NCBI RefSeq assembly: GCF_014840935.1
Contig: NZ_CP062005.1
Coordinates: 1,550,001-1,614,000, forward strand
DNA length: 64,000 nt
Direction of reading: 5' to 3'
From: Halomonas sp. YLGW01
GTDB taxonomy: Bacteria > Pseudomonadota > Gammaproteobacteria > Pseudomonadales > Halomonadaceae
Program-made: the position numbers and the translations under genes
Notes under the pieces: generated by a model
What the model saw: the letters and a program-made list of their open reading frames with translations, nothing else
Told to the model about the DNA's origin: nothing
Database searches by the model: none
Part shown: piece by piece, positions 7,804 through 29,476 of the stretch
Position numbering within the stretch: position 1 is the first letter of the stretch
Layout of the letters: every line of letters starts with the position of its first letter

Positions 7804-8445
7804 TCAGCGATCGGCTTGGCCGAATGCAGTGGCGGCGGCTTGCGGATCTGCTTGACCGCAGATCGCAGAGATGACCGCCAGTCCATCGGCGCCTGCTTGC
7901 CTGACGGCCTTCACGTGATCTGCGTTCAAGCCGCCGATGGCCACCGTGGGCAACACACTGGCCGTCGCCAGGGCGGCGAGCCCCTCCATTCCGAGTGGCG
8001 GTGCATGATCCTGCTTGGTCGAGGTGGCGAATACCGGGCCCAGGCCAAGGTAATCGAGCGGCTCGGGATCCAGAGTTGCAAGCTGAGTGCAGTTTTCGAC
8101 CGACAGCCCCAGAATGGCTCGAGGGCCCAGGCACCGACGCGCCTCGGCCACGTCACCGTCTCCCTGGCCGATATGTAGGCCATCTGCCTTGGCGGCGAGG
8201 GCAACTTCCAGGCGGTCGTTGATGATCAAGGGGACACCAGTACCCTGAAGCGCTGTCATCAGTGTGCGGGCCTGGGCGGTGAGCTCGGTATCGGTGGCGG
8301 TCTTGTCACGCAGCTGAATCATCGTGACCCCGCCACGTACGGCGCCAAGCACGGTGTCGATGAGCCCTGCCTGGGCGCATAGCTCGGCATCGGTGACCAG
8401 GTAAAGGGACAAGTCGAATGCCTTCGATGGATGATGATTAGACAT
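7804..8445 (-). CDS. thiE: Thiamine-phosphate synthase
   Basis: A 213-residue TIM-barrel enzyme that joins HMP-pyrophosphate and thiazole phosphate to thiamine phosphate. Visible family motifs are YLVTDAE at the start, VTMIQLRDK (substrate phosphate/metal region), LIINDRLEVALAAKADGLHIGQGD, GLSVEN, DYLGLGPVFATSTK and VAIGGLNADHV. The open frame extends upstream to 8616, but the ATG at 8445 is preferred. It has GGAGAT upstream and starts just before the first beta strand, as in the family. It overlaps the end of thiM by 8 bases, so the two are one transcript under the TPP riboswitch. Confidence 0.95.
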   Translation of the reverse strand: MSNHHPSKAFDLSLYLVTDAELCAQAGLIDTVLGAVRGGVTMIQLRDKTATDTELTAQARTLMTALQGTGVPLIINDRLEVALAAKADGLHIGQGDGDVAEARRCLGPRAILGLSVENCTQLATLDPEPLDYLGLGPVFATSTKQDHAPPLGMEGLAALATASVLPTVAIGGLNADHVKAVRQAGADGLAVISAICGQADPQAAATAFGQADR

Positions 8446-9238
8446 GTTCGATCTCCAGGTGACGCCCTGACAGTGCGCCGGCGTCGAGGCCATGCAAGGC
8501 GTCGAGAAAGGCCACCGAGAAACTGCCGGGTCCCTTGGCGTCCTTGCCGGCCCGTTCGCCGGCGGCGGCATAGCCGTCAAGGGCCGCGACGGTGGCGGCA
8601 AAGATGTCCTCGGCATCGGCGATGAAGGCTGCGACGACGCCGGTTAGCGAGCACCCCAGGGTCGTGACCTTGGGCATGAGTGGATGGCCTCCCTCGATCC
8701 TTGCCAGGCGCTGGCCGTCGGTCACGATATCCTGTTCCCCGGTGACGGCGACAACGGCGCCGGTCTGCCGCGCCAGCTGAAGGGCGGCGTCGAGCGCGCT
8801 ATCGGCAGCGTCGGTGCTGTCGACGCCTCGTCCGCCCGAGCTCTGATTCACCAGCGCCATGATTTCCGAGGCATTGCCGCGGATCACTGTGGGGGACAGA
8901 GCGACCAGCTGACGGGCCGTCTGGCGGCGGTAAGTGGTGGCGCCGACCGCGACCGGGTCCAGCACCCAGGGCGTGCCGGTAGTCTGGGCGGCGCTGGCGG
9001 CCTCGATCATGGCATCGACCCAGTGCGGTGACAGGGTGCCGATGTTGATGGTCAAGGCCTGGGCGAGGCCGGCGAATTCACCGGCTTCCTCGCGCGCATG
9101 CACCATGGCTGGAGAGGCGCCGATCGCCAACAGGACGTTGGCCATGGAATTCATGGCGACGAAGTTGGTGATGTTGTGGATCAGCGGCGACGTTTCGCGC
9201 ACGCGTGCTAGGTGAAGAGCAGGATTCACTGTGGTCAT
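8438..9238 (-). CDS. thiM: Hydroxyethylthiazole kinase
   Basis: A 266-residue ribokinase-like enzyme that phosphorylates 4-methyl-5-hydroxyethylthiazole in thiamine salvage. Motifs are PLIHNITNFVAMNSMANVLL, LTINIGTLS, GTPWVLDPVAVGATTYR, VIRGNASEIMAL and the anion-hole segment TTLGCSLTGVVAAF with the catalytic Cys. Two ATGs stand side by side at 9241 and 9238. The second has the better spacing to GGAGG (6 bases). It is the first gene after the TPP riboswitch and overlaps thiE. No de novo thiamine genes are next to it, so this looks like a salvage unit. Confidence 0.94.
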   Translation of the reverse strand: MTTVNPALHLARVRETSPLIHNITNFVAMNSMANVLLAIGASPAMVHAREEAGEFAGLAQALTINIGTLSPHWVDAMIEAASAAQTTGTPWVLDPVAVGATTYRRQTARQLVALSPTVIRGNASEIMALVNQSSGGRGVDSTDAADSALDAALQLARQTGAVVAVTGEQDIVTDGQRLARIEGGHPLMPKVTTLGCSLTGVVAAFIADAEDIFAATVAALDGYAAAGERAGKDAKGPGSFSVAFLDALHGLDAGALSGRHLEIEHV

Positions 9239-9284
9239 CATGGGCCTCCATCGCGGAGGCGACCGTGGGCAGAGGCTGGATGAG

Positions 9285-9372
9285 CCTGCCACACGACTCC
9301 CTCCGCCGGCATTATCCGGGTCAGGTTCGAAGGGTGCCTCTCAGCCGGCGAGCACCGGCGCCCCTGTCATCA
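9285..9372 (-). promoter_or_regulatory. TPP riboswitch (THI element) upstream of thiM-thiE
   Basis: On the minus strand the sequence carries the conserved THI-box core CTGAGAGG, then ACCCTTCGAACCTGA, then GGATAATGCCGGCG and a closing GGAGGGA. These are the two aptamer arms that bind the pyrimidine and pyrophosphate of thiamine pyrophosphate. The element lies about 50 bases before the thiM start and faces the right way. Thiamine pyrophosphate binding normally turns such genes off, at translation or transcription. No U-rich terminator is obvious before thiM, so control of translation initiation seems more likely. Confidence 0.93.
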
Positions 9373-9422
9373 AGAAAAGGTACTATCCCCGCCGACTGCC
9401 TGGCTGTAAAGCCCGCAGCGAT

Positions 9423-27181: not shown

Positions 27182-28678
27182 ATGGATGCTTCATTCTCTG
27201 ACCTTTTTACCGACCTGGTCGGCGCCGGCAACGGCCTGATCTGGGGCAGCGTGCTGATCTACCTGCTGATCGGTGCCGGCCTGCTGTTCACCATCATGAC
27301 GGGCGGTGTGCAGTTTCGCTATTTCGGCCACATGTTCAAGCTGCTCAAGCGTTCCCGCGAGGGCGGGGCGGGCATTTCGTCATTCCAGGCCCTGTCGACC
27401 AGCCTGGCGGCCCGCGTAGGGACCGGCAACCTGGCCGGCGTAGCGGTGGCCATCTACTTCGGTGGCCCCGGTGCCGTCTTCTGGATGTGGATGACCGCCC
27501 TGGTGGGCATGTCGACCAGTTTCGTCGAGTCGACTCTGGCACAGGCCTACAAGGTCAACCACGGTGATCAGACCTTCCGCGGGGGGCCGGCCTATTACAT
27601 CGAGCGCGGCCTCGGCTCGCGCTGGCTGGCCACGGCCTTCTCTGTCTGCCTCATCATTGCCTTCGGCCTCGCCTTCAACAGCGTGCAGGCCAACTCCATT
27701 GCCCTGGCCATGGAACAGGCCTTCGAGATCCCGACCTGGATCGTCGGTGCGGCCCTGGTGGTGGTGGTGACGCCGATCATCTTCGGTGGCCTGAAGTCCA
27801 TCGCCCGGGTCGCCGAACTGATCGTGCCGCTGATGGCGGTGCTGTATCTCGCGCTGGCGTTGATCGTGGTGGCGATGAATGCCTCCGAGCTGCCCGGTGC
27901 GATCATGACCATCCTGCGCAGCGCCTTCGGCCTCGAGCAGGCGGCCGGTGGCGCCGTGGGCTATGCCGTGGCGCAGGCGATGATGCAGGGCATCAAGCGG
28001 GGCCTCTTCTCCAACGAGGCCGGCATGGGCTCGGCGCCCAACGCCGCCGCCACCGCCAGCACCTCGCCGAACCATCCGGCGGCGCAGGGCTTCATCCAGA
28101 TGCTGGGGGTCTTTCTCGATACCCTGGTGATCTGTACCGCCACGGCGGCGATCATCATCATCTCCGGTCCGATGATGACCAGCGGCGATGCCCCGAACGG
28201 TATCCAGCTCACGCAGATGGCGCTGTCCTCCCACGTCGGTGACTGGGGCGGCATGTTCATCGCCGTGGCGATCCTGCTGTTCGCCTTCACCTCGGTGATC
28301 GCCAACTACTCCTATGGCGAGAGCAACATCGAGTACCTGGCCGGTCCGCGTCGTGCACGCACCGCGGTGTTCATCTATCGCCTGGCGGTGCTGGCGATGG
28401 TGATGATCGGCTCGGTGAGCAGCCTGAAGGCCATCTGGGGCTTCGCCGACCTGTCGATGGGCATGATGGCGCTGATCAACCTGGTGGCGATCCTGCTGCT
28501 GTCGCCCCTGGCCGTTGCCCTGTTCAAGGACTACGACCGTCAGGTTCGTGCCGGCGTTGATCCGGTGTTCGACCCGCGGCGCTTCCCCAAGCTCGTCGGC
28601 AAGGTCGATCCCCAGGCCTGGCCGGAGCGTGATGCGCCGGTGACCTCGGAGAGCGGCAAGCCCGCCGAGGCCCGCTAG
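27182..28678 (+). CDS. Sodium:alanine/glycine symporter (AGCS family)
   Basis: A 498-residue membrane transporter of the alanine/glycine:cation symporter family (AlsT/DagA type). Signature stretches are MTGGVQFRYFGHMFKLL, QALSTSLAARVGTGNLAGVAVAI, GGPGAVFWMWMTALVGMSTSFVESTLAQ and GIKRGLFSNEAGMGSAPNAAA. The residues around VGTGN and FSNEAGMGSAP form the conserved substrate- and Na+-binding core. It imports alanine or glycine with Na+. The ATG at 27182 matches the family start; the frame is open to 27134. Ends in a polar C-tail. Followed by an intrinsic terminator at 28726. Confidence 0.92.
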   Translation: MDASFSDLFTDLVGAGNGLIWGSVLIYLLIGAGLLFTIMTGGVQFRYFGHMFKLLKRSREGGAGISSFQALSTSLAARVGTGNLAGVAVAIYFGGPGAVFWMWMTALVGMSTSFVESTLAQAYKVNHGDQTFRGGPAYYIERGLGSRWLATAFSVCLIIAFGLAFNSVQANSIALAMEQAFEIPTWIVGAALVVVVTPIIFGGLKSIARVAELIVPLMAVLYLALALIVVAMNASELPGAIMTILRSAFGLEQAAGGAVGYAVAQAMMQGIKRGLFSNEAGMGSAPNAAATASTSPNHPAAQGFIQMLGVFLDTLVICTATAAIIIISGPMMTSGDAPNGIQLTQMALSSHVGDWGGMFIAVAILLFAFTSVIANYSYGESNIEYLAGPRRARTAVFIYRLAVLAMVMIGSVSSLKAIWGFADLSMGMMALINLVAILLLSPLAVALFKDYDRQVRAGVDPVFDPRRFPKLVGKVDPQAWPERDAPVTSESGKPAEAR

Positions 28679-28708
28679 GCGCTGTTTCCCCCTCTCTGAG
28701 GGAGCGGG

Positions 28709-28714
28709 TATACT
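28709..28714 (+). promoter_or_regulatory. Possible -10 box for yhhQ
   Basis: TATACT stands about 90 bases before the yhhQ start and upstream of the 28726 hairpin. No convincing -35 is seen. If used, the hairpin and riboswitch candidate would both be in the yhhQ leader. Confidence 0.3.
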
Positions 28715-28725
28715 GCGTAAGTGAT

Positions 28726-28760
28726 AGGCGCCACGGCTCATGCCGTGGCGCCTTGTGTTT
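28726..28760 (+). terminator. Intrinsic terminator between the AGCS symporter and yhhQ
   Basis: AGGCGCCACGGC pairs with GCCGTGGCGCCT around the loop TCAT (12-bp stem), followed by TGTGTTT. It stands 48 bases after the symporter stop. Confidence 0.75.
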
Positions 28761-28761
28761 C

Positions 28762-28798
28762 GAGGGTTCCCTCACCCCTCCGTCATTCAAAAAGGTGG
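28762..28798 (+). promoter_or_regulatory. Candidate preQ1-I riboswitch before yhhQ
   Basis: GAGG (28762-28765) can pair with CCTC (28777-28780). The loop starts GTTCC and ends CACC (28773-28776), which can pair with GGTG (28794-28797) as a pseudoknot. The linker is A-rich (CATTCAAAAA). The downstream partner overlaps the ribosome site AAGGTGG, 6 bases before the yhhQ ATG. This architecture (short P1, GTTC loop, A-rich tail, pseudoknot to the Shine-Dalgarno) matches the preQ1-I class. The gene it precedes is a known queuosine-precursor transporter family. A competing simple hairpin GAGGG/CCCTC exists, and the consensus match is from memory. Confidence 0.5.
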
Positions 28799-28801
28799 CA
28801 C

Positions 28802-29476
28802 ATGTTTACTCTGACATCCGCCCAGGCCAGCCGTTGCCTGGGCATCCTGGTGGCGTTTCACATTGGCGTGATCGCCGCCAGCAACTACCTCGTTCAGCTG
28901 CCGTTCACGCTGTTTGGCTTCCATACCACCTGGGGCGCGTTCAGCTTCCCGTTCATCTTCCTGGCCACTGACCTGACCGTACGACTCTTCGGCAAGGGGC
29001 CGGCGCGTATGATCATCGCCCGGGTGATGCTGCCGGCCTTGCTGGTGTCCTATGCCATCTCGGTGATCTTTCCCCAGGGCAGCTTCGCCGGACTCGGCGC
29101 GCTTGCCGAATGGAACCTGTTCGTCGGTCGCATTGCCCTGGCGAGCTTCATGGCCTATGTACTGGGCCAGCTGATGGACATTCAGGTCTTCGACCGGCTG
29201 CGTCGCCTGCGCGCCTGGTGGGTGGCGCCGGCGATCTCGACCCTGTTTGGCAACCTGGCGGATACCTTCGCCTTCTTCTCGATTGCCTTTTACAACAGCC
29301 CGGATGCCTTCATGGCCGCGCATTGGCCGGAAATTGCCTGGGTGGACTATGTCATCAAGCTGGGGATCAGCCTGCTGCTCTTCCTGCCCCTGTACGGTCT
29401 ATTGCTGGGCTGGCTCAGCCGGCGCCTGATGGCCTGGACGGGGCAGGACGACCGTGATCCGGTACTCGCCCAGTGA
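28802..29476 (+). CDS. yhhQ: Queuosine precursor transporter YhhQ (VUT family)
   Basis: A 224-residue membrane protein with about six helices. Family segments are AASNYLVQLPFTLFGFHTTWG, FSFPFIFLATDLTVRLFGK and ARMIIARVMLPALLVSYA. YVLGQLMDIQVFDRLRR and APAISTLFGNLADTFAFFSIAF follow. This is the COG1738/VUT family (YhhQ), which imports preQ0/preQ1 for tRNA queuosine. The ATG at 28802 follows AAGGTGG; the frame is open back to 28721 only through non-coding hairpin sequence. It precedes the esterase gene by 60 bases. Regulation by the element at 28762 is plausible. Confidence 0.9.
   Translation: MFTLTSAQASRCLGILVAFHIGVIAASNYLVQLPFTLFGFHTTWGAFSFPFIFLATDLTVRLFGKGPARMIIARVMLPALLVSYAISVIFPQGSFAGLGALAEWNLFVGRIALASFMAYVLGQLMDIQVFDRLRRLRAWWVAPAISTLFGNLADTFAFFSIAFYNSPDAFMAAHWPEIAWVDYVIKLGISLLLFLPLYGLLLGWLSRRLMAWTGQDDRDPVLAQ

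Follow-up and report, generated by a model that had tools for sequence, protein, structure and literature searches.

In the 64,000-nt stretch of Halomonas sp. YLGW01 DNA analysed here (the window), a yhhQ gene is located between a sodium:alanine symporter gene, which ends at position 28678, and an alpha/beta hydrolase gene, and it is preceded by a short leader whose features are collected in Table 1. The yhhQ product scored 346 bits against the NCBIfam model PRK11212.1 (7-cyano-7-deazaguanine/7-aminomethyl-7-deazaguanine transporter; cut-off, 252 bits) and was also above the cut-off of TIGR00697 (queuosine precursor transporter), with Vut_1 as its Pfam match. These results agree with the assignment to the queuosine-precursor transporters (COG1738) made in an earlier reading of the DNA letters, referred to below as the sequence-only reading. 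Furthermore, homologues of QueC, QueF, and Tgt are present in the host genome, and the cell therefore probably makes and uses preQ1.

Upstream of the leader element, a strict sigma-70 scan found no promoter for yhhQ; a TATAMT-like box, of which the candidate -10 box of the window is an instance, recurs in most relatives about 20 to 65 nt upstream of the aptamer. Between this candidate box and the aptamer lies a strong hairpin, beside which we noted upstream hairpins in several relatives (leaders L001-L007, L011, L012, L014, L016, L017, L024, L026-L030, and L034). These occupy the same place with a different sequence and mostly without a T-run, and other relatives have none. The hairpin of the window looks like a 5'-leader hairpin more than a plain terminator. 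The terminator scan found no terminator 3' of the riboswitch.

Table 1. Features of the yhhQ leader and gene (window coordinates)
Feature	Position	Strand	Basis
Candidate -10 box TATACT, putative yhhQ promoter	28709..28714	+	TATAMT-like box in most relatives
Strong 12-bp hairpin, outside the riboswitch	28726..28753	+	-27.8 kcal/mol, z -6.1; scored terminator-like
Type III preQ1-I riboswitch (almost certain), 34 nt: aptamer and overlapping Shine-Dalgarno	28762..28795	+	Identity with E. coli core, outgroup covariance model, relatives
P1 5' strand GAGGG	28762..28766	+	Partner 28776-28780; outer pairs covary; also in minimum-energy fold
Pyrimidine-rich loop UUCCCUCAC, 9 nt	28767..28775	+	Identical to E. 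coli loop; roles via co-crystal structure (PMC10622847)
P2 5' strand CCU (anti-Shine-Dalgarno)	28770..28772	+	Corresponds to E. coli C9, C10, U11; invariant in 121/121 distinct leaders
P1 3' strand CCCUC	28776..28780	+	Outer pairs covary in relatives
Variable linker CGUCAUUC, 8 nt	28781..28788	+	Length and sequence both free to vary among relatives
A-run of loop L3 and start of Shine-Dalgarno	28789..28793	+	Kept in relatives; contacts from E. coli structure
Shine-Dalgarno AAGG; 28793-28795 as P2 3' strand	28792..28795	+	Sequence; 6-nt spacing to ATG
yhhQ, 224 aa, preQ0/preQ1 transporter, putatively regulated gene	28802..29476	+	NCBIfam PRK11212.1, TIGR00697, Pfam Vut_1

The leader element reads GAGGGUUCCCUCACCCCUC-CGUCAUUC-AAAAAGG, and it is almost certainly a type III copy of the preQ1-I riboswitch, in a fold with P1 formed by 28762-66/28776-80 and P2 by 28770-72/28793-95. 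In particular, the three loop-side G-C pairs of P1 (GGG/CCC at 28764-66/28776-78) are constant in the leaders compared, and so is C28775, directly 5' of the P1 3' strand. The loop has UU after the P1 5' strand and AC (28774-75) before the 3' strand, with A28774 as its only purine. Two further features are those of type III, namely, the A-run (4-5 A in this subtype) reached from P1 over an 8-nt linker and the pairing of the AGG of AAGG with the loop CCU (C28770-G28795, C28771-G28794, and U28772-A28793). From the end of the riboswitch at 28795 to the yhhQ ATG there are 6 nt, the commonest spacing among relatives.

Comparison with known preQ1 riboswitches

The yhhQ riboswitch of E. coli, a type III preQ1-I element of 36 nt with the linker GGUUAAUC, has been solved in a 2.3-Å co-crystal structure; it binds preQ1 1:1 with a KD of 58 nM and a strong preference over preQ0, and reporter repression and switching have been observed in live cells (PMC10622847). 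In the E. coli genome, the yhhQ leader reads AUUGGGUUCCCUCACCCCAAUGGUUAAUCAAAAAGG (36 nt) and carries the published linker. The 15-nt core GGGUUCCCUCACCCC and AAAAAGG are exactly the same in E. coli and in the window, and among the matching bases are those described as touching preQ1 or pairing with the Shine-Dalgarno; both elements also have an 8-nt linker, yhhQ downstream, P2 over AAGG, and 6 nt to the ATG. However, the outer P1 pairs differ (G-C and A-U in the window, U-A and U-A, plus A-U, in E. coli), as do the letters of the linker, and the window has the strong hairpin upstream of the aptamer. The core identity with an element that binds preQ1 and represses expression (PMC10622847) upholds the class and likely ligand proposed in the sequence-only reading, preQ1-I; its account of place and logic, with a pseudoknot overlapping the yhhQ ribosome site, was also right, although it did not name the type III subtype.

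Within the stem-loop, window positions are obtained by adding 28761 to the E. coli crystal number, so that C9-C10-U11 map to 28770-72, A13 to 28774, and C14 to 28775, while the E. coli Shine-Dalgarno A27-A28-G29-G30 maps to 28792-95 (A28792 and A28793 being A27 and A28). As the counterpart of C14, C28775 would be the base that confers specificity for preQ1.

As regards the other subtypes, the loop consensus of type III is pyrimidine rich, with UU after the P1 5' strand and AC before the 3' strand (PMC11625349). Type I riboswitches share with the window the UU beside the P1 5' strand, but membership in type I needs UC before the P1 3' strand (PMC11625349), where the window has AC. Type II riboswitches, such as those of T. 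tengcongensis and B. subtilis (PMC11625349), have in common with it the AC before the P1 3' strand, an A-rich L3, and an H-type pseudoknot. However, different from the pyrimidine-rich loop and the taken-up AAGG of the window, type II loops contain purines (e.g., G8, A10, and G11 in T. tengcongensis) and the ribosome site is partly paired; the longer loop with pocket-capping purines (PMC10622847) is absent here, and we rejected type II membership for an element with a single loop purine. The leader element is an uncatalogued example of an already known riboswitch subtype, ordinary in kind. None of the papers searched reports it in Halomonas; an earlier listing, in the survey that defined type III, is possible.

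Since both preQ0 and preQ1 are substrates of the YhhQ importer (PMC10622847), and a change of ligand is compatible with the sequence, the same scaffold could also be imagined to sense preQ0 or another 7-deazapurine, or to have lost ligand control. We consider this quite improbable: the loop, the A-run, and the Shine-Dalgarno bases are all those of the E. coli element, with its strong preference for preQ1 over preQ0 (PMC10622847), and the strong conservation speaks against a loss of control.

Base pairing in related leaders and proposed control

Counted over 121 distinct leaders, which are related by descent, so that shuffle counts are not probabilities, the first outer pair of P1 is standard in all 121 (U-A in 56, A-U in 52, and C-G in 13; shuffle mean about 56, maximum 75) and the second in 102 (G-C in 51, U-A in 22, A-U in 21, C-G in 7, and G-U in 1; shuffle mean about 54, maximum 69). 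It is hard to explain otherwise that one pair should stay standard throughout the leaders and yet be made by three kinds of base pair. Moreover, in 24 gap-free yhhQ leaders, all from outside the host's family (the outgroup), 96.9% of the cells of the type III structure are paired, and the covariation score of this structure is above that of every shuffle and slide. P2 is invariant in all 121 distinct leaders; covariation is silent here because nothing in P2 varies, and the support for this helix consists of conservation and the homologous crystal structure. In the loop, 28773 is the sole commonly varying position, and 28774 is sometimes G. Folding of the single sequence formed P1 with an energy z of -1.0, which has no significance and is expected of so short a pseudoknot.

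A different fold had been drawn in the sequence-only reading, with a P1 stem closing a GTTC loop (28762-65/28770-73) and a pseudoknot between CACC and GGTG. Both pairings can be drawn on the window sequence alone, and the bases to which it pointed are all in place (GAGGG/CCCTC, CACC at 28773-76, the A-run at 28789-93, GGTG at 28794-97, and ATG at 28802-04). A preQ1-I riboswitch in that fold is nevertheless scarcely credible. In the 24 outgroup leaders, the GTTC-loop stem has 52% of its cells paired and no covariation, and the whole structure has 70.2% paired with no covariation excess. Across the 121 leaders, the pseudoknot pair 28773-28797 is found in 24 and the pair 28774-28796 in 67, GGTG being variable (C, T, A, or G at 28797; T, A, or C at 28796); besides, C28773 would be used by both helices at once. 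The drawn pairing is accordingly replaced by the type III fold, and the boundary of the element is corrected to 28762-28795. The comparison of related leaders suggested in the same reading did bring out covariation in P1, in the type III register, but not the CACC/GGTG pairing.

A plain conserved ribosome-binding leader, or a protein-binding site, with no small-molecule sensing would agree with the fact that the conserved A-run and AAGG contain the ribosome site. It would leave unexplained, however, the compensatory changes in P1, the invariance of a loop distant from the start codon, and the identity to a preQ1 aptamer whose crystal structure is known, and we give it hardly any weight.

Taken together, these comparisons lead us to interpret the leader element before yhhQ, with a probability of about 95%, as a class I type III preQ1 riboswitch exerting translational control by negative feedback. 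In the proposed mechanism, the AAGG ribosome site would pair with the loop to give an H-type pseudoknot, in which preQ1 would pair with C28775 and, by analogy with the E. coli structure, be contacted by the Shine-Dalgarno base A28792. Of the AAGG bases, all but A28792 would be absorbed into P2, and A28792 is the one predicted to touch the ligand. When preQ1 is plentiful, P2 would be stabilised and the ribosome site hidden, so that less YhhQ would be made; when preQ1 is scarce, P2 would open and the importer would be produced. Translational feedback appears to be the best reading in that the element abuts the start codon with no terminator after it, repression being presumed from E. coli. In addition, a weak alternative hairpin is predicted over the ribosome site (28782-87/28794-99, GUCAUU/GGUGGC), which could mask this site while P2 is open; on visual inspection, some leaders of the same genus retain it in part, and those beyond the genus do not.

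Model searches, distribution, and variation

At gathering thresholds, the Rfam search of the whole window returned a TPP riboswitch and tRNA only, with no preQ1 family, and no preQ1 family emerged from permissive scans of 28600-28950 and 28755-28810. The TPP riboswitch (9281-9375, minus strand), which is above its gathering score and ordinary, sits upstream of thiM-like (8438-9292) and thiE-like (7804-8616) genes. Weak matches to ar7, Scr6925, ncS54, and BjrC68 were discarded, as they come from the upstream hairpin (28726-53) and are far under the gathering scores. Across the whole genome, RF00522 (PreQ1, class I) gave three matches of about 15 bits, all away from the yhhQ leader. This family resembles the window element in P1, the short loop, the A-rich tail, and the pseudoknot to the ribosome site, but it matched neither the window nor the E. 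coli type III copy at any threshold. In particular, the E. coli yhhQ leader (L074:440-600), used as a positive control, gave no match even at E up to 10 (Rfam 15). Taken by itself, the missing Rfam match would speak against the riboswitch; since the crystallised E. coli copy goes unmatched, however, RF00522 in the version used is blind to type III elements, and the missing match refutes nothing. The sequence-only reading had stated that it would fall if no model matched and CACC/GGTG pairing was not conserved. Taken literally, this is what we found; yet the argument does not bite, because the proven E. coli copy escapes Rfam as well and other strands make up the true P2.

Different from RF00522, a covariance model that we built on the 24 outgroup leaders ranked the window site best in the 3.45-Mb genome (29.2 bits, E 5.2e-4; next match, E 0.37), and it also recovered the E. 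coli site. An exact search of the same genome finds the 15-nt core GGGTTCCCTNACCCC at this one place, whereas with up to 2 mismatches there are 17 matches versus 22 for the reversed control pattern, that is, no excess. By exact core search and outgroup model, the host genome has a single convincing type III site, whose occurrence is far past chance. Genome annotation probably under-reports type III riboswitches, since they escape a standard Rfam scan, as even the crystallised E. coli example does. A dedicated model such as ours recovers them at once. The window also adds a well-supported example from Halomonadaceae to the smallest known riboswitch type.

Type III riboswitches have been described mostly in gammaproteobacterial yhhQ leaders (PMC10622847, PMC11625349), a distribution that predicts their presence in the host lineage. 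When genomes of the host's family were searched by the YhhQ protein and not by the motif, a match was found in 98 of 101; 70 leaders were read, of which 66 fit the motif. One more (L072) has it with a loop one base longer, and in the other three (L067, L069, and L070) the motif was not found in the stretch examined. A motif scan of named genomes, which demanded the core pattern and hence cannot reveal core variation, gave at least 117 loci, belonging to Enterobacterales, Vibrio, Shewanella, Pseudomonas, Aeromonas, relatives of Halomonas, some Betaproteobacteria, and two Desulfobulbales bins. Among the matches listed, 114 have the frame of a YhhQ homologue right after AAGG, 2 are truncated at the end of the locus, and 1 is a stray; this last (L102), with no plausible start just 3' and a dehydrogenase-like gene next, was taken as a chance match. 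In a class-wide sample of 369 genomes, the motif occurred in 7, each time before yhhQ, and the reversed control in none.

Two metagenome bins labelled Desulfofustis (L125) and Desulfobulbaceae (L183), of the phylum Thermodesulfobacteriota, also carry the motif before yhhQ; they fall outside the phylum to which type III has been described as almost confined, and mis-binning is possible.

In some Halomonadaceae, the linker bears predicted hairpins, with 20 to over 50 nt between the core and the A-run. The host-family leaders L015, L036, L039, L056, L062, and L111 have an enlarged linker from P1 to the A-run with one or more predicted hairpins, consisting in L039 of repeated CGCC-TTCGGCAAAA-like units, and they keep the core and AAAAAGG intact. 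One might suppose that type III has diversified in Halomonadaceae into an extended subtype, whose linker or upstream hairpins would alter affinity or add an input, the element of the window being the compact form, in which a weak additional hairpin covers the ribosome site; we regard this as unlikely. Natural linkers that hold whole hairpins offer, in any case, a ready test of the effect of linker length on the pseudoknot.

Finally, in about 30 leaders from Vibrio and others (e.g., L103, L108, L110, L115, and L129) one more C precedes the outer P1 pairs (CCCCC), often alongside an A-to-G change at the position of E. coli A13 (GGGTTCCCTCGCCCCC), and the two changes may represent a coupled variant of the binding pocket.
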